Shown piece by piece: positions 2,334 to 37,404 of a stretch of DNA of 37,548 nucleotides. A program made the position numbers and the translations under genes. The DNA is from Paracoccaceae bacterium (GTDB lineage Bacteria; Pseudomonadota; Alphaproteobacteria; Rhodobacterales; Rhodobacteraceae). The notes under the pieces were generated by a model, which saw nothing but the letters and a program-made list of their open reading frames with translations, ran no database searches and was not told the DNA's origin. Location of the stretch: positions 1-37,548 of the forward strand of contig WOZM01000056.1 of NCBI GenBank assembly GCA_011620265.1, read 5' to 3'. The first letter of the stretch is position 1. Every line of letters begins with the position of its first letter.

Positions 2334-4442
2334 GTGCGGGGACAGAAGATCGCAGGCCTCGGCATGACGTCGGTCGCAGCGTTTGGCGCGATCATGGCCT
2401 ATGCCGATCCGCTCCTGAGCGACAATCCGGGGACGTTCGGGCTTCCCGGCCTCATCGACATGCCGACGGCCGAGAGCGTTCCGGAAGGGATGATCGGCGC
2501 GACCGTGTTCCGCTTCGGCGGCGGGATGCGGGTGACGGCGACCTTCCAGGTGACCGACCGGCTCCAGGGCGCGTTCCGCTATTCGCGGGTGCCGGGCGTC
2601 TTCACCAACGGCTCGGTGCTTTACGACCGCTCCTTCGACGTCCAGTACCGCCTGCTCGACGAAAAGCGCCTGCGCCCGGCGGTGGCGATCGGCCTGCGCG
2701 ACTTCATCGGCACCGGGGTCTATTCCGGCGAATATGTCGTGGCGACCAAGTCCATCAGCCCGAGGCTCCGCGCGACGGCCGGCCTCGGCTGGGGCCGGCT
2801 CGGCACCGAGGGCGATATCGGCAGCCCCTTCGGCGACCGCCCGGCGCTCGATATCGGCGAAGGCGGCAAGGCCAATACCGACCAGTGGTTCCGCGGTCCC
2901 GCAGCACCCTTCTTCGGTCTTGCCTGGGACGCCAGCGACAAGCTGACGCTGAAGGCGGAATATTCCTCGGACGCCTATCTGCGCGAAACCGCCGCCGGAA
3001 CGTTCAGCCGCGACTCGTCGGTCAACTTCGGCTTCGACTACCGGATCAACAAGTCGGCGAGCGTCAGCGGCTACTACCTCTACGGCTCCGAGGTCGGGTT
3101 GCAGTTCAACCTCGCCATCGACCCGCGCAAGCCGCCCGTGCCGAGCGGGCTCGAGACCGCGCCGCTGCCGGTCCGCCCGCGGCCCTCGCCGTCGAGCGAC
3201 CCCGCGGCCTGGGCAACCGACTGGACCGCCGACCCCGAAGTGCATCCCGGCATCCAGACCGCCGTCGCCAGGGCGATGGAGAAGGACGGGATGGTGCTGG
3301 AGAGCATGGCGCTTTCAGCCACCCGGGTCGAGGTGCGGCTCCGCAACGAGAGATACCTCGCCCAGCCGCAGGCCGTTGGCCGCACCGCCCGCATCCTCAC
3401 CCGGGCGCTGCCGCCCTCGGTCGAGACGCTGGTCATCACCTCCGTCGCCGAGGGCATGCCGACCTCCTCCGTCACGCTCGCCCGCCGCGACGTGGAAGCG
3501 CTCGAAAGCGAGGAATCGGTGGCGCTCCTGCGCCGGGCGGAGTTCAGCGACGGCGTCGCCGGCGCCCATCCCGGCCTCGTGCCGACCGAACATGTCTATC
3601 CGCGCTTCGTCTGGTCGCTCTCGCCCTATGGCGAGGCGAGCGTCTTCGACCCCGACGATCCCTTGCGCGCCGATTTCGGCGTCGAACTGGCGGGCCGCTA
3701 CGAATTCGCGCCGGGGCTGGTCCTGTCGGGCTCTGTCCGCAAGAAGATCATCGGCAATCTCGACGAGTCGACTCGGGTGTCGGATTCCACCGTCTACCAC
3801 GTCCGCTCCGACCTCGTGGAATACCAGAAGGAGGGCGATCCGGGCATTCACGACCTGACGCTCGCCTGGTATACGCGCCCGGCGCCGAACCTCTATGGCC
3901 GCGTCTCCGCCGGCCTGCTCGAACGCATGTATGGCGGCATTTCGGGCGAACTGCTGTGGAAGCCGGTCGACAGCCGGCTCGCCCTCGGGGCCGAGGTGAA
4001 CTATGTCAAGCAGCGCGATTTCGACACGCTCTTCAGCTTCCGCGACTACGAGATCGCCACGGGGCATGTCTCGGCCTATTACGATTTCGGCCAGGGGTTC
4101 ATGGGCCAGGTCGATGTCGGGCGCTACCTGCTCGGCGACTGGGGCGCAACCTTCACGCTCGACCGCGAATTCGCCAACGGATGGAAGGTGGGCGCCTACG
4201 CGACCCTTACCGACCTTTCCGAGGCCGATTTCGGCGAAGGCTCGTTCGACAAGGGTGTGCGGCTGACGATTCCGGTGTCCTGGACCACCGGCAAGCCCTC
4301 CACCAACAAGGTCTCGACCGTCATCAAGCCGCTCAATCGCGACGGCGGTGCCCGGCTCGACGTCGATGGCCGTCTTTACGACACGGTCCGCAGCACCCAT
4401 CAGGGCGACATGCAGATCCAGTGGGGGAGGTTCTGGCGGTGA
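2334..4442 (+). CDS. yjbH: YjbH family outer-membrane protein of exopolysaccharide export
   Basis: A 702-aa protein of the YjbH/GfcD family, predicted beta-barrel proteins of the outer membrane tied to group 4 capsule/exopolysaccharide secretion. I place the start at GTG 2334 because GGAG (2324-2327) sits six bases upstream and the product then opens with a signal peptide (basic RGQK, hydrophobic core to about residue 22, AYA then DPLL). The mature start LSDNPGTFGLPGLIDMPTAES is characteristic of the family, followed by repeated alternating aromatic/polar strands to the C-terminus (INKSASVSGYYLYGSEVG, final WGRFWR). The region at about residues 270-330 is Pro-rich, between two barrel-like halves. 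It overlaps the next gene by one base (TGATG), forming a YjbH-YjbF pair. Confidence 0.88.
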   Translation: MRGQKIAGLGMTSVAAFGAIMAYADPLLSDNPGTFGLPGLIDMPTAESVPEGMIGATVFRFGGGMRVTATFQVTDRLQGAFRYSRVPGVFTNGSVLYDRSFDVQYRLLDEKRLRPAVAIGLRDFIGTGVYSGEYVVATKSISPRLRATAGLGWGRLGTEGDIGSPFGDRPALDIGEGGKANTDQWFRGPAAPFFGLAWDASDKLTLKAEYSSDAYLRETAAGTFSRDSSVNFGFDYRINKSASVSGYYLYGSEVGLQFNLAIDPRKPPVPSGLETAPLPVRPRPSPSSDPAAWATDWTADPEVHPGIQTAVARAMEKDGMVLESMALSATRVEVRLRNERYLAQPQAVGRTARILTRALPPSVETLVITSVAEGMPTSSVTLARRDVEALESEESVALLRRAEFSDGVAGAHPGLVPTEHVYPRFVWSLSPYGEASVFDPDDPLRADFGVELAGRYEFAPGLVLSGSVRKKIIGNLDESTRVSDSTVYHVRSDLVEYQKEGDPGIHDLTLAWYTRPAPNLYGRVSAGLLERMYGGISGELLWKPVDSRLALGAEVNYVKQRDFDTLFSFRDYEIATGHVSAYYDFGQGFMGQVDVGRYLLGDWGATFTLDREFANGWKVGAYATLTDLSEADFGEGSFDKGVRLTIPVSWTTGKPSTNKVSTVIKPLNRDGGARLDVDGRLYDTVRSTHQGDMQIQWGRFWR

Positions 4443-29961: not shown

Positions 29962-30732
29962 TCAGTGCAGCCCGAACTCGGACATCAGCTGCCGACGATA
30001 CCGCACGAAGGCCGGATCGTTGCGATCGCGCGGCCGCGGCAGGTCGATGTCGATGAGGCGAATGGCTCCTCCCTTGGCCTTTGGCAGGACAAGAACCCGG
30101 TCGGCAAGAAAGATCGCCTCTTCGAGATCGTGGGTCACGAGGACCAAGGTGACCTTTTCCTCGGCCCAGATGCGGTTCAGTTCTTCCTGCATGGTCATCT
30201 TGGTCATGGCGTCGAGCGCGCCAAGCGGTTCGTCGAGCAGCAGGATTTCAGGCTGCACCGTTAACGCGCGGGCGATGCCTACCCTTTGAGCCATGCCCCC
30301 CGACAATTGCCGGGGCCACGCGCCCTCGAATTCGCCCAAGCCCACAAGGCGGATGTAGTGGCGCGCCCGCTCGGCCGCTTCCGATTTCGGCTCGCCCTGC
30401 ACCTCCAGTCCGAAAGCGACGTTGCCCAGAACCGTCAGCCAGGGCAGCAGCCGCGGTTCCTGAAAGATGACCGACCTTTCCCGCCCCAATCCGTGGACCG
30501 GTGCGCCGTCGATCAGAACACCGCCCGCATCCGGTTCTTCGAGCCCCGCCAGAATCCGGAGAAGTGTCGTTTTCCCGGAACCGCTCGCCCCCACGATGGC
30601 AAGGCTCTCACCGCCACGGATATCGAGGTTGATCTTCTTGAGCACCGTCAGCGTTTGGCCGTCGATGGTGAAGGACTTGGTGAGGTCACGGATCGTGACC
30701 TCACCTTTCGCCTGTGCCTGGATCAGCGTCAT
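29962..30732 (-). CDS. ssuB: Sulfonate-type ABC transporter ATPase
   Basis: A 256-aa ATP-binding subunit of the nitrate/sulfonate/taurine importer class. Walker A is GASGSGKTT (48-56), Q-loop VIFQEPRLLPWLTV, signature QLSGGMAQRVGIARAL, Walker B ILLLDEPLGALDAMTK, switch His in LVTHDLEEA. The EPRLLPWLTV Q-loop and D-loop pattern are typical of SsuB/TauB. A GAGG site lies before ATG 30732; the gap to ssuA is ten bases. It works with the SsuA receptor and SsuC permease encoded just upstream. Which sulfonate or sulfur compound is carried cannot be read, but the neighbouring monooxygenase and FMN reductase support an organosulfur substrate. Confidence 0.9.
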   Translation of the reverse strand: MTLIQAQAKGEVTIRDLTKSFTIDGQTLTVLKKINLDIRGGESLAIVGASGSGKTTLLRILAGLEEPDAGGVLIDGAPVHGLGRERSVIFQEPRLLPWLTVLGNVAFGLEVQGEPKSEAAERARHYIRLVGLGEFEGAWPRQLSGGMAQRVGIARALTVQPEILLLDEPLGALDAMTKMTMQEELNRIWAEEKVTLVLVTHDLEEAIFLADRVLVLPKAKGGAIRLIDIDLPRPRDRNDPAFVRYRRQLMSEFGLH

Positions 30733-30742
30733 AATGCCGGCC

Positions 30743-31723
30743 TCAGTTCGTGACGGGCGTGTCGCCCGTGACCAGCAGGATATCGGCCGCGCTCAACTGC
30801 CCTTCGCGCAGCACGCCCTCGCGCACCAGAACATCGATCCAGAACTGGATGTCACGCTCGACCGCAAGACCGCCCTCGCGCACGCCGTACCCGGCGAAGA
30901 ATTGGGCGACCTCGGGGTTCTCGCCGCGCGCCTCGAGGATGCGGGTTAGGACCGCCCGCGTTTCCTCAGGGTTCTCCCGGGCGAAATCGAGGGCGCGGGC
31001 GGATTGTTCGACGAAGGCCTGGGCCGCGTCGGGATGGGCATCCACCCAGTCACGGCGCAGGACGGTGAAGCCACCGGCAATTTCGCCCAGAACGTCGGTA
31101 TCGTCGAAGACGACGCGGAGCCCGCCGCCTTGCTGCGCTGCTCCCTCGAAGGTCGTCTGCCAGTATCCGAAGGCTGCGACATCGACCTGACCGGAGCGCA
31201 GGACCTGTTCCAGTTGCGGCCCCGGCACCACCACCAGGTTGGCGGCGTCCTGGGGCAGGCCCTCCGAATGGAGCGCCTCGCGGGTTGTGTAGTCGAGATG
31301 CGCCCCCAGCGTGTTCACGGCGATGGTCTGGCCGACGATGTCCGCGATTGTCCGGATCGGGCTGTCCTCAAGCACGACGAATTTCGACTGCACCTCGTCG
31401 TTGATCCCGTTCGTGGGATAGGCTGCAACGAAATCGTTGCCACTGGCGATCGCGTTGATGACTGCCGAGGTCGCGGCCGAGCCGATGTCGACGCTTCCCG
31501 CTGCGAGAGCGAAGAGCGATTCAGGCCCGCCGCCGGCATAACCGGCGTTTTCCAGCGTGATCCCGGTTCCGTCGAAGTAGCCCAGTTCCTGGGCCAGTTC
31601 GTGGGCCGACACGCCGCCATGGCTGGCGAGAAAGCGCAGGGTAACATCTTCCGCGAAGGCCGCGCCGGAGACCCCGAGCGTGAGGGTCGTCGCAGCAAGG
31701 AGGGGTTTGAACGAGATGGTCAT
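30743..31723 (-). CDS. ssuA: ABC transporter substrate-binding protein, SsuA/TauA-like
   Basis: A 326-aa periplasmic receptor. The signal peptide is residues 1-24 (FKPLLAATTLTLGVSGAAFA, then EDVTLRF). The fold is NMT1/SsuA-like: LGYFDGTGITLENAGYAGGGPESLFALAAGSVDIGSAATSAVINAIASG, then IADIVGQTIAVNTLGAHLDYTTREAL, and the hinge region GQVDVAAFGYWQTTFEGA. AAAGGA seven bases before ATG 31723 fixes the start. It delivers the substrate to SsuC/SsuB. Aliphatic sulfonate is the family's commonest ligand, but alternative small anions or sulfones are possible. Confidence 0.88.
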   Translation of the reverse strand: MTISFKPLLAATTLTLGVSGAAFAEDVTLRFLASHGGVSAHELAQELGYFDGTGITLENAGYAGGGPESLFALAAGSVDIGSAATSAVINAIASGNDFVAAYPTNGINDEVQSKFVVLEDSPIRTIADIVGQTIAVNTLGAHLDYTTREALHSEGLPQDAANLVVVPGPQLEQVLRSGQVDVAAFGYWQTTFEGAAQQGGGLRVVFDDTDVLGEIAGGFTVLRRDWVDAHPDAAQAFVEQSARALDFARENPEETRAVLTRILEARGENPEVAQFFAGYGVREGGLAVERDIQFWIDVLVREGVLREGQLSAADILLVTGDTPVTN

Positions 31724-31763
31724 GTCAGTTTTCCTTTGGTTTGGTTGGATTTGGTTGAGAGGG

Positions 31764-32600
31764 TCAGTGATGGGCCGTGCTCCAGCGGCACAGCCGGCGC
31801 TGCAGAACGACCAGCACCCAATTCGCGGCGAGGCCGAGAAAGGCGAGAAGGAATATCGCTGCGAACATCAGCGGGATCCGGAAGTTGTACTGGGCGTTCA
31901 TCACCTGAAAGCCGACGCCCTTGTTCGCGCCGATCATCTCGGCGGCGATCAGCAGCAACAGAGCCGTCGTGGCGGACAGGCGCAGACCCACGAAGATCGA
32001 CGGGACAGAGGCGGGCAGGACGACACGGCGGAAGGTCGTCAGACGGTTCGCGCCGAAGGTGCGCGCCATCTCGATCAGTTTCGGATCGACTTCCTTGACC
32101 CCACCGATGGTGGCCAGAAGGATCGGGAACAGGGTTGCCCAGAAGATCACGAAGACCTTCGACGCCTCGCCAAGCCCGAGGAGCAGGATGAAGACTGGAT
32201 AGAGCGCCAGTGCAGAGGTCTGCCGGAAAAGTTGCAGGATCGGGTCAAGGGCGCGTTCGACGGCCCGGATCTGGCCCATGAAGAGACCCAGCGGGATGCC
32301 GATGCCGACGGCTGCGGCAAAGGCGATGCCAGCGCGCTGCAGCGAGATCGCGATATCATCGACCAGCGCGCCGCTGGACAGACCCGTCCAGAGGGCGCTG
32401 GCCACCCGGTCGATGGGAGGAAAGACCGCCGGGTTGAGCCATCCCGCGGTGCTGGCGATCTGCCAGCCTGCGAAGAAGGCAATCAGAAGTCCATAGTCTG
32501 CGGTCAGCCGCCGGGTCGTACGCCCCGTGCGGATGAGGGCCACCCGAATGTCCGGGCCACGCTGAGCGCGGACGCTCTCGTTTGAAATCTGGTAGGTCAT
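31764..32600 (-). CDS. ssuC: ABC transporter permease, SsuC-like
   Basis: A 278-aa inner-membrane permease of the BPD-transport (TauC/SsuC) class with about six transmembrane helices. The EAA loop that contacts the ATPase is visible as IEMARTFGANRLTTFRRVVLPASVPSIFVGLRL. The final helix ends AANWVLVVLQRRLCRW. AAAGGAGG precedes ATG 32600. The order permease, receptor, ATPase on one strand with 40- and 10-bp gaps indicates one transcript, probably starting further upstream at the monooxygenase gene (11-bp gap). Confidence 0.9.
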   Translation of the reverse strand: MTYQISNESVRAQRGPDIRVALIRTGRTTRRLTADYGLLIAFFAGWQIASTAGWLNPAVFPPIDRVASALWTGLSSGALVDDIAISLQRAGIAFAAAVGIGIPLGLFMGQIRAVERALDPILQLFRQTSALALYPVFILLLGLGEASKVFVIFWATLFPILLATIGGVKEVDPKLIEMARTFGANRLTTFRRVVLPASVPSIFVGLRLSATTALLLLIAAEMIGANKGVGFQVMNAQYNFRIPLMFAAIFLLAFLGLAANWVLVVLQRRLCRWSTAHH

Positions 32601-32611
32601 GGGAGCCTCCT

Positions 32612-33964
32612 TTACTCGGCGGCGTGCGCCTGGGTGCGCAGGGCGCCGTGGCGATTGATCGGGAAGGGCAGGCCGAGGTTTTCGCGCAAGGTCCGGCCTT
32701 CGTAGGCGGTGCGGAACAGGTCGCGCCGCTGCAACTCGGGGATCACGAGATCGACAAAGTCGTCGAGTGCCGTGGGCAGCCAGGGCGGCAGGATGTTGAA
32801 GCCGTCCGCGGCCTCGTTCTCGAACCAGTCCTGAAGCTGGTCGGCAACCTGTTCCGCGCTGCCGATCACCGTGTAGTGGCCGCGGGCCGAGGCGACATGC
32901 TGATAGAGTTGGCGGATGGTGAAGCCATTCTCGTCGGCGATCTGCCGGATCAGAGCTTGGCGCGACTTCATGCCTTCGGTGGGCTCGACCGGCGGAAGTG
33001 GGCCATCGAGGTCAACGCCGGCCAAGTTCAATGTGCCGCCGGTCAAGCCCTTGATCAGGGCGACACCGTCCTCCTCCAAAATTAGGGAGGTCAGCCGCGC
33101 GTATTTCTCGCGCGCTTCGGCCTCGGTCCGACCGACGAAGGGCGAGACACCGGGCATGATGAGAACATGGTCGGGATTGCGTCCATTGGCCGCCGCGCGG
33201 GCCTTGATGTCACGATAGAACTCCTGCGCCGTGTCCAGCCGCTGGTGGGCGGTAAAGATCACCTCCGCTGTGGCGGCGGCCAGCGCGCGGCCGTCTTCGG
33301 ATTGACCTGCCTGGACGATGACCGGATGCCCCTGCGCCGAGCGTGACACGTTGAGCGGTCCGCGCACCTTGAAGTGGTCGCCCTTGTGCAGCGCAGGATG
33401 CACCTTCGAGGTGTCGAAGAAGACGCCGCTGTCCTTGTCGCGGATGAAGACGTCGTCCTCGAAGCTGTCCCACAGCTTCTTGACGACCTCGACATGCTCC
33501 TGCGCGCGGGCATAGCGGAAGGCATGCGGATGCTGTTGATCGAGGTTGAAGTTATGGGCGGCCGCCTCGGTCGCCGTCGTCACGACATTCCAGCCAGCGC
33601 GCCCACCCGAGAGCAGGTCGAGCGAGGCGAACTTGCGCGCCGTGTTGTAGGGCTCTTCGTAGGTGGTGGAAGCCGTGGCGATGAAGCCGATGTTCTTCGT
33701 CAGCGGCGCGAGTGCTGCGAACAGCGTCACCGGCTCGAATCCTGCCACCTTGGCGTTGCCGCCCTCGATCCCGCCACCAAAGGCCACGGCCAGACCATCC
33801 GCCAGGAAATAGGCGTCGAAGAGGCCGCGTTCCGCGGTCAGGGCCAATTGCTTGTGAAAGTCGAAACTTGTCGCCCCATCAGCCGGACTGTCGGGATGGC
33901 GCCACGCCGCGATGTGCTGTCCGCCACCGGGCAGGAATGCGCCGAGTTTGATCTGTCTTGTCAT
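32612..33964 (-). CDS. FMN-dependent monooxygenase, DszA/NtaA family
   Basis: A 450-aa bacterial-luciferase-like flavin monooxygenase of the NtaA/SnaA/DszA (SoxA) subgroup, two-component enzymes that use reduced FMN to oxidise C-S or C-N compounds. Marks are MTRQIKLGAFLPGGGQHIAAWRHPDSPADGATSFDFHKQLALTAERGLFDAYFLADGLA, LDLLSGGRAGWNVVTTATEAAAHNF, RGPLNVSRSAQGHPVIVQAGQSEDGRALAA, and the C-terminal GFNILPPWLPTALDDFVDLVIPEL. ATG 33964 with AAGGAGA is preferred over an ATG 48 bases upstream. The substrate is unknown; sulfone, sulfonate or a thioether-type desulfurisation is likely in this context. The FMN reductase gene precedes it. Confidence 0.9.
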   Translation of the reverse strand: MTRQIKLGAFLPGGGQHIAAWRHPDSPADGATSFDFHKQLALTAERGLFDAYFLADGLAVAFGGGIEGGNAKVAGFEPVTLFAALAPLTKNIGFIATASTTYEEPYNTARKFASLDLLSGGRAGWNVVTTATEAAAHNFNLDQQHPHAFRYARAQEHVEVVKKLWDSFEDDVFIRDKDSGVFFDTSKVHPALHKGDHFKVRGPLNVSRSAQGHPVIVQAGQSEDGRALAAATAEVIFTAHQRLDTAQEFYRDIKARAAANGRNPDHVLIMPGVSPFVGRTEAEAREKYARLTSLILEEDGVALIKGLTGGTLNLAGVDLDGPLPPVEPTEGMKSRQALIRQIADENGFTIRQLYQHVASARGHYTVIGSAEQVADQLQDWFENEAADGFNILPPWLPTALDDFVDLVIPELQRRDLFRTAYEGRTLRENLGLPFPINRHGALRTQAHAAE

Positions 33965-34065: not shown

Positions 34066-34626
34066 TCAGGCCGCCGAGCTTGCGGGTCTTTCGGTCTTCT
34101 GGTGGCGGGGAAGCAAGCCGATCAGCTGGCCGACTGCGGTCTGGAGACGCAAGGCGACATCGGGGGCGACACCGCCGCCTTCCAGATCGGCCGAGGCTGC
34201 GTAGACGCCGACGGGCACCACCGCCGCCTCGAAAAACGCGAACAACGGGCGAAGCTGATGTTCGACGACGAGAGCATGCCTGTGTCCGCCACCCGTCGCG
34301 GTGAGAAGCACGGGTTTTCCCCGCAATGCCTCGGGATCAATCAGGTCGAAGAGATGCTTGAACAACCCGGTATAGCTGCCCTTGTAGACCGGGCTGCCGA
34401 CCACGAGCGCATCGGCGGCAATGAGGCTGTCGATCAGGTCGCGCGCGCCTGGTGCGAGATCAGCGATCCGCCTGGCCGTTCCCAGTGAGGCGCCAAGATC
34501 ACCAAGGTCGAAGACGCGCCCGCCGCGACCCGCGCGAGATCCCGCCTGATCGACCGCCGTCTGGATCAGCTGCCGGGTCCGCGAAGGGGAACTGAAACTC
34601 CCCGCAAAGCCGATGATTTCGCCCAT
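34066..34626 (-). CDS. NADPH-dependent FMN reductase (SsuE/MsuE-like)
   Basis: A 186-aa flavodoxin-fold reductase supplying FMNH2 to the monooxygenase encoded next. The phosphate loop is GFAGSFSSPSRTRQLI (6-21), and GSPVYKGSYTGLFKHLFDLIDPEALRGKPVLLTATGGGHRHALVVEHQLRPLF is diagnostic for SsuE/MsuE enzymes, including the dimer and flavin contacts. AAAGGTGG four bases before ATG 34626 decides the start over an ATG 15 bases upstream. First gene of the ssu-like transcript. The gap 34627-34751 before it contains CTTTGGAAT (minus strand, about 34699-34691), a string also present upstream of the hydrolase operon. Confidence 0.9.
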   Translation of the reverse strand: MGEIIGFAGSFSSPSRTRQLIQTAVDQAGSRAGRGGRVFDLGDLGASLGTARRIADLAPGARDLIDSLIAADALVVGSPVYKGSYTGLFKHLFDLIDPEALRGKPVLLTATGGGHRHALVVEHQLRPLFAFFEAAVVPVGVYAASADLEGGGVAPDVALRLQTAVGQLIGLLPRHQKTERPASSAA

Positions 34627-34751: not shown

Positions 34752-36131
34752 TCAGACCCCCTTGACAGTGGAAAGCTGTCTTGAGCCGAAGACCTCGCGC
34801 GCGAGACGGAATGTCTGTTCGCGGATGTCGGGAATCGCCGTGATTTCCCACAGGGCCCCACGCGCTGCCGGGCCAATCGCGAAGAGCCGGGAGGATGGCC
34901 AGCCGGTCGCATCCTTCACCTGGGCGTCGTTGGTCGTGTCGAGTCCAAGTCTCAATGGATCGAGTCGGGCGGCCCTTCGATCAAGAAGATCGCGGACGAC
35001 GGGCGCGGCGTGCTTGACCGGATCGCGGCGAATACCCCTGCAGTCGATCACATGGTCGACGTCGAATGCGCTTGACCGCGCATGACCACGCTGCGTCACG
35101 ACAAGCCGGATACGGCCATCGTCGCGCCAGGTCGCGCTGTCGAAGCGCCCACGCAGGACGGACAACTGTCCTTGGCGCCGGGCTGTGTCGACCCGCTCCG
35201 ACGAGATCGGAGGCATCCGGTGTCGGTGCACCTCCCAATAGGTTGCGGCGTGCCGCAGGAAACGTGCCCTTTCGTCGATGTCCCATGCCCGCCAGATGGC
35301 CGCGATATGTGGACGGATACCGTCAACCGCATCGCGCCAGGTTCCCCCTGCCTCCTCGGCAGCGCGCACCTTGCCGCGCAACCACAGCATAACGGCGCTG
35401 ACCGAGGCCCCCAACGGAATATCCTCGCGGCCCAGATCGAGCGGCCGGGTCAGGGCATGTACCTGCGGCAGAAGTCCGCGACGGGAAATGCACAAGATGC
35501 CACCGCGATGACCCGCTGCCAGAAGGCTGGCGACATGATCGACCATGCTGAGGCCGGTGCCGATGATCGCGACAGTGGCGTCGGAATTTGCAGGTGCCGA
35601 AAAATCCCACGCGCCGCGCAGGGGCGGCTCGGGATCTGCGGACACGGCATGGCCAGTGGCAAGAATGGCCGCGTCGGCCAGAACCGACGTTCCATCGTCC
35701 AACCGGGCAACGATCCCGGTTTCCGTTTCACGAAGGCCCGTGCAGGAGCCTTGGACGCAGCGGAGCCGGGACGCGTCGCCTCCCTCACGCCACGGGCTCA
35801 GAAGGTCGCCCAGATACTGTCCGTAAGTTGCACGATCGACAAAGCACTGGTCGGTCACACGCCGACCGGTTCGCGACAGCCAGTCCCCGAAATGCCCCGG
35901 CCGGTCGGGCAACGCGCTCATCTGAGCGACCCGCGTGTTGAGAAGATGATCAGGATGCGTGGTGCCATAGGCGATGCCACAGCCTAGCATCGGGCCCCGT
36001 TCAATGATGGTCACGCGGGTTTCGGGATGCCCTTGGCCAAGCAGATGTGCCGCCATCAGCACGCCGCTCGCACCGCCGCCGACGATGATGACGTGGTGAC
36101 AGTGGTCGCGTTGAGTGCTGGATCCGTCCAT
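34752..36131 (-). CDS. FAD/NAD(P)-binding oxidoreductase (NAD_binding_9 type)
   Basis: A 459-aa flavoprotein of the COG4529/YdhS-like family. The first dinucleotide fold is HHVIIVGGGASGVLMAAHLLGQ, followed by GCGIAYGTTHPDHLLNTRVAQMSALPDRPGHFGDWL, the hallmark of the family. A second nucleotide loop is VAIIGTGLSMVDHVASLLAAGHRG. The C-terminal FAD closure is FAIGPAARGALWEITAIPDIREQ. The biochemical role of the family is unsettled; amine or sulfur compound oxidation has been suggested by context only. ATG 36131 overlaps the stop of the 55-aa peptide gene (TGATG), so translation is coupled. Last gene of the hydrolase, 33-aa, 55-aa, flavoprotein operon. Confidence 0.9.
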   Translation of the reverse strand: MDGSSTQRDHCHHVIIVGGGASGVLMAAHLLGQGHPETRVTIIERGPMLGCGIAYGTTHPDHLLNTRVAQMSALPDRPGHFGDWLSRTGRRVTDQCFVDRATYGQYLGDLLSPWREGGDASRLRCVQGSCTGLRETETGIVARLDDGTSVLADAAILATGHAVSADPEPPLRGAWDFSAPANSDATVAIIGTGLSMVDHVASLLAAGHRGGILCISRRGLLPQVHALTRPLDLGREDIPLGASVSAVMLWLRGKVRAAEEAGGTWRDAVDGIRPHIAAIWRAWDIDERARFLRHAATYWEVHRHRMPPISSERVDTARRQGQLSVLRGRFDSATWRDDGRIRLVVTQRGHARSSAFDVDHVIDCRGIRRDPVKHAAPVVRDLLDRRAARLDPLRLGLDTTNDAQVKDATGWPSSRLFAIGPAARGALWEITAIPDIREQTFRLAREVFGSRQLSTVKGV

Positions 36132-36298
36132 CACACCACCATGAGGAGGATGGCGTAGATCACACCCACTACGGCCAGGCCGCCTGCGAACAGTCTCGTG
36201 TCCACGGCATTTCGCTCGATAATCTCGCGCTGCTCGTCAGCATCCAGCGACGAAAGATAGGCGGCGAGGCCGGGATCATATCCGCAACAGGGAAACAT
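36131..36298 (-). CDS. 55-aa membrane peptide with N-terminal CC motif
   Basis: A small protein I do not recognise. It starts MFPCCGYDPGLAAYL, has an amphipathic charged helix SLDADEQREIIERNAVDTR, and ends in one transmembrane segment (about 37-55, FAGGLAVVGVIYAILLMVV), giving a tail-anchored topology. GAGGAGG seven bases before ATG 36298 is a strong ribosome site; the longer frame from 36331 has none. Its stop overlaps the flavoprotein start. The paired cysteines next to a flavoprotein operon could bind a metal or form a redox disulfide (inference). It follows the 33-aa peptide stop by ten bases. Confidence 0.8.
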   Translation of the reverse strand: MFPCCGYDPGLAAYLSSLDADEQREIIERNAVDTRLFAGGLAVVGVIYAILLMVV

Positions 36299-36308
36299 GG
36301 TGGCCTCC

Positions 36309-36410
36309 TCAGGAAAGGATGATGATGGCAAGAAGAGAGACGTAGCAGACCGCGAAGACCGCCATCGGAGTGGCGCGCTTCACGGCACCTATGATCGTGT
36401 CGAGCGTCAT
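36309..36410 (-). CDS. 33-aa single-pass membrane peptide
   Basis: The peptide begins MTLDTIIGAVKRATPMAVFA and continues with a hydrophobic helix VCYVSLLAIIILS to the stop. It has a short amphipathic N-terminus with Lys/Arg (10-12 region), then one transmembrane segment at about 14-32. The case for it being real: its ATG overlaps the stop of the hydrolase gene (ATGA), its stop (TGA) lies inside the ribosome site of the 55-aa gene, and hydrophobic composition is maintained throughout. I know of no homologue. It may be an accessory subunit or anchor for one of the two flanking enzymes. Confidence 0.65.
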   Translation of the reverse strand: MTLDTIIGAVKRATPMAVFAVCYVSLLAIIILS

Positions 36411-36997
36411 GAGAACACCTGTGCATGAAGTTCAGGAACGAAGCGGGCGGATTTGGTCAGGGCAGGCATCCCGCACCCGAGCGGCCAGAGCAGATCCCGG
36501 AGCGCGCAACCTTCGGGCCAGGGGCCATACCCGGAGGCGACATTGATATGACCCGCCTCCCCCATATCGATGAAATCCGCACCCCAGTCCTCGCTCAGAT
36601 TGCGCGCACGATCATGATCCATCCATGGATCGTTCGTGCTTGCGGCGACGATCGTCGGGACACCGAGATCCAGCTGTGGGATGCACCCGAAAGCCTGAGT
36701 ACGTGGGCTGCGGGACGGCTCGGCCGGCGCCACCAAAAGCGCACCGGCCACCCGGACCTGCGGCCAGCTGGCCAACAGCCGGACAATCGCAATGGCCCCG
36801 AGCGAATGCCCGACAAGCACCGCCCCGGGATGGATCAGCGTCGCTGCCGCGATCTCGGTCAGCCACGCTTCGAGCGTGGGCTTGGACCAGGAGCGCTGCT
36901 CCACGATCAGGGCGGTCGGATCGGTGGCAGCCCACCAGTGTTGCCAATGCGGGGCGGGAGATCCGTCGAGGCCGGGGATGAGCAATGTCTTGATCAT
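36407..36997 (-). CDS. RBBP9/YdeN-like serine hydrolase
   Basis: A 196-aa alpha/beta hydrolase of the RBBP9/YdeN family. Family marks are LLIPGLDGSPAPHWQHWW at the N-terminus, the nucleophile elbow VGHSLGAIA with Ser65, Asp123 in ASTNDPWMDHDRA, and His150 in GEAGHINVASGYGPWPEG, a complete Ser-Asp-His triad. AAAGGAGG precedes ATG 36997; the longer frame is not used. Members are small serine hydrolases of mostly unknown substrate. It is the first gene of a four-gene operon and is coupled to the 33-aa peptide by ATGA. The sulfur context suggests an ester or thioester substrate, but this is only inference. Confidence 0.88.
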   Translation of the reverse strand: MIKTLLIPGLDGSPAPHWQHWWAATDPTALIVEQRSWSKPTLEAWLTEIAAATLIHPGAVLVGHSLGAIAIVRLLASWPQVRVAGALLVAPAEPSRSPRTQAFGCIPQLDLGVPTIVAASTNDPWMDHDRARNLSEDWGADFIDMGEAGHINVASGYGPWPEGCALRDLLWPLGCGMPALTKSARFVPELHAQVFS

Positions 36998-37139: not shown

Positions 37140-37346
37140 TCAGCCCGGCTGTTTTGTCTTGCGCAGATAGGGAAGGACGCGCTCGAACCCAACAAAACGG
37201 GCTTCCGCATCCGCGTCCGACACGGCGGCCGTCACGATCACGTCTTCGCCCTGTTTCCAGTTCGCGGGCGTCGCCACCTGATGTCTGGCTGTCAGCTGGA
37301 TTGAATCGAGCGCGCGTAGGATCTCGTCAAAGTTGCGTCCCGCACA
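37140..37346 (-). pseudogene. C-terminal remnant of a 1-Cys peroxiredoxin (LsfA/Prx6-like)
   Basis: Reading minus from 37346, the open stretch encodes CAGRNFDEILRALDSIQL..., then TARHQVATPANWKQGEDVIV and ends in ERVLPYLRKTKQPG and TGA. This is the C-terminal third of Prx6-type peroxiredoxins (usual GRNFDE.LR..DSLQLT..H.VATP.NW..G). A TGA (37349-37347) stops the frame immediately before, and the upstream sequence in no frame gives the catalytic PVCTTE part, so the gene is truncated. LsfA, a sulfate-starvation protein beside ssu genes in Pseudomonas, belongs to this family, which fits the sulfur block. Confidence 0.75.
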
Positions 37347-37404
37347 TCAGGCAGGCGCAAGGGAACGGCGCTTCCGTTGCTTCGATCACGGGGCCAAGGG
37401 TCAT
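37327..37404 (-). other. 25-codon ORF at the joint of the permease and peroxiredoxin remnant
   Basis: Starting two bases after the sulfate permease stop (TGAGATG) with AAAGGTCGG upstream, it reads MTLGPVIEATEAPFPCACLM then CGTQL and stops. It contains a CAC..C cysteine cluster. It runs into the peroxiredoxin remnant in another frame. In its place one would expect cysA or an intact peroxiredoxin gene, so this is most likely a chance frame across a deletion joint. A tiny Cys-rich peptide is not excluded. Confidence 0.3.

Follow-up and report, generated by a model that had tools for sequence, protein, structure and literature searches.

What are two peptides of a few dozen residues doing between a serine hydrolase gene and a flavoprotein gene? 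The question is raised by contig WOZM01000056.1 of Paracoccaceae bacterium (assembly GCA_011620265.1), whose 37,548 bases were analysed as a whole and are referred to here as the window. Four genes are stitched together on its minus strand (lengths in amino acids, aa):

36407..36997, minus strand: serine hydrolase of the RBBP9/YdeN type (PF06821), 196 aa, recognised by its Pfam profile
36309..36410, minus strand: peptide A, 33 aa, recognised from sequence, hydropathy, conservation and a selection test
36304..36310, minus strand: GAGGAGG ribosome-binding site of peptide B, read from the sequence
36131..36298, minus strand: peptide B, 55 aa, recognised from sequence, conservation before the flavoprotein gene and AlphaFold
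34752..36131, minus strand: flavoprotein with an NAD_binding_9 domain (PF13454) and two dinucleotide-binding motifs, 459 aa, recognised by Pfam and AlphaFold

The hydrolase gene, preceded by AAGGAGG, runs from an ATG at 36997 to a TGA at 36407 that overlaps the ATG of A (36410) as ATGA. A ends at 36309 with a TGA (36311-36309) that opens TGAGGAGG, so that its stop lies within the GAGGAGG site of B; B runs from an ATG at 36298 to a TGA at 36131, which overlaps the flavoprotein ATG (36131) as TGATG, and the flavoprotein gene ends at 34752. This arrangement had been described in the original prediction and proved exact to the base, as did the motif MFPCCGYDPG, which is the N-terminal start of B. 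Both peptides had also been described as single-pass membrane proteins, and each does have one strongly hydrophobic stretch, from which we infer a membrane location: in A it follows a basic N-terminus (Kyte-Doolittle maximum over 15 residues 2.95), and in B the corresponding maximum is 3.01. As detailed below, the observation is real, conserved and under-annotated.

Relatives were found by similarity to the window proteins and form a best-hit sample. It combines 9 of the 40 listed plasmid matches, themselves from 532 records, with the 80 best among 582 confirmed contig loci, 18 matches found in the 394 family genomes, and hydrolase loci from additional hydrolase searches. Five records that were identical to others or duplicates in the region (L048, L120, L122, L124 and L127) were removed before the loci were counted; L050 and L058 are strains of a single species, and both were kept. 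The sample holds 28 distinct loci, mostly from Rhodobacteraceae, in which the hydrolase immediately precedes the flavoprotein in the same orientation, and 50 distinct hydrolase loci (55 rows minus L048, L122, L124, L127 and L179).

Conservation of both frames beside homologues of the two enzymes, on which the original prediction had staked itself, was indeed found. When the DNA ahead of flavoprotein relatives was read, B was present before the flavoprotein gene in 24 of the 28 loci, starting with MQVCCAYDPGLLIYL... in Hartmannibacter, MYYATYDPGFSAFL... in Paracoccus denitrificans, MFPCCGYDPGIFAYL... in L040 and MYPCCAYDPGLLLFA... in Roseovarius pacificus; A overlaps the hydrolase stop in 17 of the 50 hydrolase loci. 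Could such frames be chance open reading frames (ORFs) in GC-rich DNA? They are short and diverge fast, and the 55-aa window sequence, used as a single query, found no convincing relative: 69 of 248 family genomes match at E ≤1, all weakly except the window itself (best other match 0.012), and none of 72,556 plasmid records matches. The apparent non-conservation of B in these searches was misleading, B having been recovered from the DNA itself, and control counts argue against chance. Given a hydrophobic ORF of 40-80 aa from ATG with its stop between 30 bases before and 20 bases after the gene start, 23 of the 28 loci pass (L051 fails besides L043, L068, L073 and L126), compared with 9 of 512 other long-gene starts in the same loci; one of these nine is B itself, leaving 8 of 511.

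Selection argues in the same direction. The original prediction had named an equal rate of synonymous and nonsynonymous change as contrary evidence; in pairs picked as separate lineages (9 for B, 5 for A), amino-acid changes lie below neutral simulation (transition weight 3, GC content 0.65), with a nonsynonymous fraction of 0.620 against a null of 0.706 for B (0 of 2000 simulations as low) and of 0.618 against 0.697 for A (3 of 2000). The ratio of nonsynonymous to synonymous rates is below 1 in 14 of 14 B pairs and in all 6 computable of 7 A pairs. Purifying selection on A and B is significant but modest. Profile matches outside the training rows (A in L041; B in L163 and L164) and the annotation of B as a hypothetical protein in four plasmid records also speak against chance, an explanation that we find scarcely credible. 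Judged by their sequences, both peptides look like genuine genes.

B has a short head with the YDPG motif followed by a C-terminal hydrophobic helix and no tail. Charged residues are absent from the last 12 positions in 29 of 31 B sequences, and the AlphaFold model has helices at residues 9-17 and 20-54 (mean predicted local distance difference test score, pLDDT, 81; predicted template-modelling score 0.38), so that B seems to end in the membrane. Pfam returned two sub-cut-off matches for B, the best being DUF3043 at E 0.038, and NCBIfam returned none. A profile of the 31 B sequences matched 66 of the 394 family genomes at E ≤0.05; the matches in 9 genomes at E ≤1e-6 all lie directly before the flavoprotein, which tests specificity only, because all nine supplied profile rows. 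Three of the weaker matches (G365, G121 and a second copy in G242) were traced further and are the exceptions to the pairing given below. Among 13,041 ORFs scanned with the A and B profiles, B matches outside the training rows were L163 (6e-6), L164 (2e-5), L053, L125, L073 and L165; L049, L057 and L064 are missing from the scan list, probably since the frames kept were those of 25-150 aa from the first start codon.

B also occurs without an adjacent hydrolase in eight more flavoprotein loci: L041, where the contig begins, L054, L066, L069, L121, L123, L125, where the frame is doubtful, and L135. No B-like ORF and no neighbouring hydrolase accompanies the flavoproteins examined from Bradyrhizobium and Mesorhizobium; of the remaining distant loci, L100 carries a single hydrophobic ORF that is unrelated, and in L072 a hydrolase lies about 1 kb upstream. 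In a tree of 79 flavoproteins, built after 30 rows had been left out (duplicates, two rows that were incomplete, and 22 loci with neither B nor a neighbouring hydrolase), one branch sets apart 51 rows that include all 31 bearing B (approximate likelihood-ratio support, SH-aLRT, 100). A peptide fusion at the flavoprotein N-terminus was considered and rejected: the sole above-threshold extension (L129, 1.73) is unlike B.

A starts at an offset of -3 or 0 to the hydrolase stop in 16 of its loci, and in L044 its ATG lies 12 bases before the end of the stop. Two sub-types were distinguished, a short one of the form KR..P..VF..CY (the window, L031, L040, L041, L044, L045 and L050/L058) and a longer one beginning M[NT]RLFR or MK.FFR (L051, L064, L068, L164, L173, L178 and L185). 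A had no match in Pfam or NCBIfam, and it was found behind none of the 10 hydrolases of less than 46% identity. Outside the training rows, the A profile matched L041 (E 9.5e-7) and L165; a candidate in L072 (Pannonibacter, with an ATGA overlap) was too weak to count (E 0.9).

Which peptide belongs to which enzyme? Tight coupling had been taken to imply stoichiometric production, and hence perhaps a membrane-bound hydrolase-flavoprotein complex; in its strict form, four subunits in equal amounts would make one obligate complex. The gene overlaps agree with this, and the two enzymes co-occur far beyond chance: the hydrolase (E 1e-40) is found in 17 and the flavoprotein (E 1e-70) in 16 of the 394 genomes, with 10 shared (Fisher 6e-12, with almost one genome per genus and kinship ignored). 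All four genes stand together in 10 of the 28 loci, only a part of the sample, and the pieces occur separately. L183 (G118, 84% complete) has hydrolase-A-MsuE-LLM (luciferase-like monooxygenase) with B and the flavoprotein absent, and hydrolase-A without B or flavoprotein adjoining is seen in L173 (G365), L178 (G273, with flavoproteins on other contigs) and L185 (G382). A close flavoprotein is absent from the genomes G118 and G382 at E 1e-70 and from G365 at 1e-20, and G121, also with hydrolase and A, has just a 32% homologue. Conversely, G023, G034 and G242 carry B and flavoprotein with no hydrolase at E 1e-15, and the Paracoccus denitrificans group keeps hydrolase, B and flavoprotein and lacks A. 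Where parts are missing, A accompanies the hydrolase and B the flavoprotein in most cases, and since parts are lost as hydrolase-plus-A or B-plus-flavoprotein units, two separable enzyme-plus-peptide pairs fit better than the obligate complex, which we regard as unlikely; on this point the original prediction was not supported as it stood. In G023 (L167 5838-10641), B-flavoprotein and MsuE-LLM are divergent.

How closely B is tied to the flavoprotein can be read from their junction. In 18 of the 24 B loci the stop codon of B shares 1 or 4 bases with a candidate start of the flavoprotein gene (GTG in L064 and L065), and among these 18 a GGA core is found ahead of B in 16 and ahead of the flavoprotein in 1 (Fisher 6e-7). 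Because 17 of 18 flavoprotein starts are without this Shine-Dalgarno core, flavoprotein translation probably depends on that of B, being carried out by ribosomes that have just finished B. Such coupling requires that B be translated; it is no proof that the peptide binds anything.

The same contrast, well-marked B starts and poorly marked flavoprotein starts, would also suit leader ORFs whose translation sets the output of the next gene while the product has no role, perhaps by sensing cysteine through the CC codons of MFPCCGYDPG. Mycobacteria have cysteine-sensing polycysteine leader ORFs, and the block here is likewise sulfur-related. A conserved run of Cys codons was not encountered, however: of 31 B sequences, 14 have a Cys among their first eight residues and 8 have CC. 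What is kept instead is the hydrophobic helix and, in 21 of 31 heads, DP, and amino-acid changes are selected against, which makes leader ORFs distinctly unlikely.

Both enzymes were assigned by profile. The hydrolase matches PF06821 over the whole domain (173.7 bits, cut-off 22), with 3bdv (DUF1234) as its nearest solved sequence, and by alignment Ser65, Asp123 and His150 form the catalytic triad (HSLG, D and H in the window copy) at the positions common to the RBBP9/YdeN-type proteins 3bdv, 1uxo and 2qs9; unlike those, its gene is coupled to those of a membrane peptide and a flavoprotein. The triad is kept in every copy found beside A or the flavoprotein. Of the 52 copies examined, 4 in other settings have another residue in place of the nucleophile serine (the first copy of L040 at 372-881, L181, L186 and L187; HGDG, HGLG, HALG and HGYG); none has A behind it, and the L040 copy stands in tandem before an active one.

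The flavoprotein matches PF13454 (123.3 bits, cut-off 21.8), and its AlphaFold model (mean pLDDT 89) contains a helical segment (residues 244-319) in which W265, R273, W280, H294, W299, H302, R303 and H304 are invariant among 54 sequences. The best Foldseek match was the aspartate N-hydroxylase FzmM (8cp2; E 3.5e-20, query template-modelling (TM) score 0.71-0.73), and SidA/PvdA were among the first 50 matches (TM 0.53-0.64). FzmM has been described as a class B monooxygenase whose two dinucleotide domains flank a helical one and whose core holds an arginine cluster (PMC10404684). The model appears to share the two dinucleotide domains and the helical block with these class B enzymes, a likeness of fold alone. 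The oxygenase assignment is weak because the FzmM match has a target TM of only 0.56-0.57 (root-mean-square deviation 7.4-8.0, identity 18%), dihydrolipoamide dehydrogenases come after it with a query TM of about 0.5, and the profile matches at E 0.001 (8 sequences) and 0.01 (40) include no class B N-hydroxylase. The window protein further differs from FzmM and SidA/PvdA in lying in a sulfur block with a coupled membrane peptide.

The sulfur-scavenging block claimed by the original prediction lies downstream on the same strand:

34066..34626, minus strand: MsuE-like flavin mononucleotide (FMN) reductase (TIGR03566, 211.3 bits, curated cut-off 212.5)
32612..33964, minus strand: FMN-dependent LLM monooxygenase of the NtaA/DmoA family (TIGR03860, 570.5 bits, cut-off 279.7)
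29962..32600, minus strand: SsuC/SsuA/SsuB-like ATP-binding cassette (ABC) importer genes (permease 31764-32600, binding protein 30743-31723, ATPase 29962-30732)

The SsuC/A/B-like genes all score below the curated equivalog cut-offs, so that a substrate for the importer could be named only tentatively. In the stretches examined, at least one of MsuE, LLM, SsuA, SsuD and CysP/T/W is present in 18 of the 28 loci and an Lrp gene in 15 of 28; extending L130 added CysP/T/W. The fullest order is that of Hartmannibacter, cysPTWA - lrp - peroxiredoxin - hydrolase - A - B - flavoprotein - msuE. MsuE, LLM monooxygenase, SsuCAB, CysPTWA, Lrp and peroxiredoxin are neighbours shared with alphaproteobacterial ssu/msu/cys blocks. 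To our knowledge, no ssu/msu operon contains the hydrolase-A-B-flavoprotein unit, and searches of the open-access literature likewise found no described system of this composition.

With cysPTWA or ssuCAB in many of these neighbourhoods, the peptides might instead regulate a membrane transporter of the block, for example CysTW or SsuC, as AcrZ, a small membrane protein, acts on a transporter. A and B overlap enzyme genes and no transporter genes, however, and B is present in L052 and L055, where stretches of 13.3 and 8.3 kb contain none of the transporters queried. L165, where A and B appeared to stand alone beside cysPTWA, was rejected as such a case: the first hydrolase codons remain in front, marking a decayed copy. 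We consider transporter regulation very unlikely. In L165 the order behind cysPTWA (reverse complement, about 3820-4205) is first hydrolase codons, A-like frame, B-like frame and then Lrp.

The frames, their overlaps, conservation, selection, co-occurrence and neighbourhood were observed directly; topology, binding, tethering, chemistry and substrate are what we infer for the two pairs. Two soluble enzymes of a sulfur-acquisition block would each be co-produced with a single-pass membrane peptide, A with the hydrolase and B with the flavoprotein, whose translation would depend on that of B. A and B would be tail anchors with the N-terminus inside, an arrangement proposed because 29 of 31 B sequences end without charge and because of the helices in the B model; their short cytosolic heads, basic with KR/RR plus Pro in A, acidic and often DP-containing in B, would bind the partner enzyme and keep it at the inner membrane, close to the block's ABC importers. 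There the flavoprotein, as an NADPH- and FAD-dependent class-B-type, N-hydroxylase-like oxygenase, might oxygenate an imported organosulfur or sulfonate compound, the hydrolase might cleave the oxidised product or an acyl group, and sulfur could then be released, for example by the MsuE/LLM pair. For a membrane-tethered oxygenase and hydrolase in organosulfur acquisition, each with its own peptide, our belief and our doubt are about equal. The further step, that A and B are two dedicated, translationally coupled tail-anchor micro-protein families serving as detachable anchors, with imported organosulfur oxidised and hydrolysed at the importer in a new pathway, is possible and decidedly tentative.

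Besides the weak oxygenase fit, several observations weigh against this scheme. The hydrolase does not always need A, because A is missing in 33 of the 50 hydrolase loci, the Paracoccus denitrificans group included. A transmembrane B is missing in 4 of the 28 loci (L043, L068, L073 and L126), and in L073 (5891-6007; MLDGRLDP...) and L053 (5831-5962; MIDGRFDP...) a B-like frame without a membrane helix precedes the flavoprotein. B diverges fast (mean column identity 26%), and its members were selected by position; on the flavoprotein tree the B label needs 11 changes, at least 3 of them forced by well-supported branches, and an independent-pairs test of B against the hydrolase had 3 pairs only and was uninformative. 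The pairing itself has exceptions: L164 (G121) reads Lrp-hydrolase-A-B with an antiporter-like gene behind in the flavoprotein's stead, a B-like peptide of G365 stands by itself on a different contig, and a decayed copy in G242 retains an A-like and a second B-like frame. Finally, 10 of the 28 loci have no sulfur gene in the stretch examined, some stretches being short.

Separately encoded, translation-coupled membrane peptides for soluble metabolic enzymes would, if true, be an unusual means of membrane placement. CydX and AcrZ are likewise small, have one hydrophobic helix and act with a larger partner; their partners are integral membrane complexes, whereas the genetic partners of A and B are enzymes without an evident membrane segment, one peptide for each. 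The locus identifies a flavoprotein and a hydrolase, neither characterised before, as probable components of sulfur acquisition in Rhodobacteraceae, and extends to Paracoccus denitrificans (hydrolase, B and flavoprotein) and Hartmannibacter (all four genes). Peptides this small are easily missed, and annotation handles A and B poorly: the plasmid record of Hartmannibacter gives B a longer start and calls it a 'hypothetical protein', and its displayed gene table, which declares itself incomplete, does not include A.

Upstream, the DNA 5′ of the hydrolase is cut off because the window, which is the whole contig, ends there. The unit may start at the hydrolase, since this gene has its own AAGGAGG and is preceded by a terminator-like hairpin (37112-37092; three such hairpins were found in the region, with 1.9 expected by chance). 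Beyond the hairpin, 37146-37379 on the minus strand holds the remnant of a peroxiredoxin, presumably of the 1-Cys type, with 73% identity over residues 140-217 of a 218-aa Hartmannibacter protein; it has an in-frame stop and the remainder is gone, and the gene is intact at the corresponding place in Hartmannibacter. At the contig end (37418-37546, minus strand) lies the C-terminal end of an ABC permease with 37% identity to CysW (E 2e-7); cysA and lrp, which stand between cysW and the peroxiredoxin gene in Hartmannibacter, are absent between the permease end and the remnant.

Two Paracoccus plasmids have similar, soluble-looking proteins of 57-58 aa behind Lrp (L032 8126-8299; L033 9636-9812), which were considered as relatives of B and are unrelated to it by eye. 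L038 (5499-13314) and L149 (4983-8252) each hold two distant flavoprotein relatives next to an Rrf2 regulator and to ssuD/sfnB or cys genes. On a Rhizobium leguminosarum plasmid (L148 3788-6673), the genes for MsuE, three small proteins, one of them with a hydrophobic helix, a 39% hydrolase, another small protein and a gamma-glutamylcyclotransferase follow one another near taurine-transport genes.

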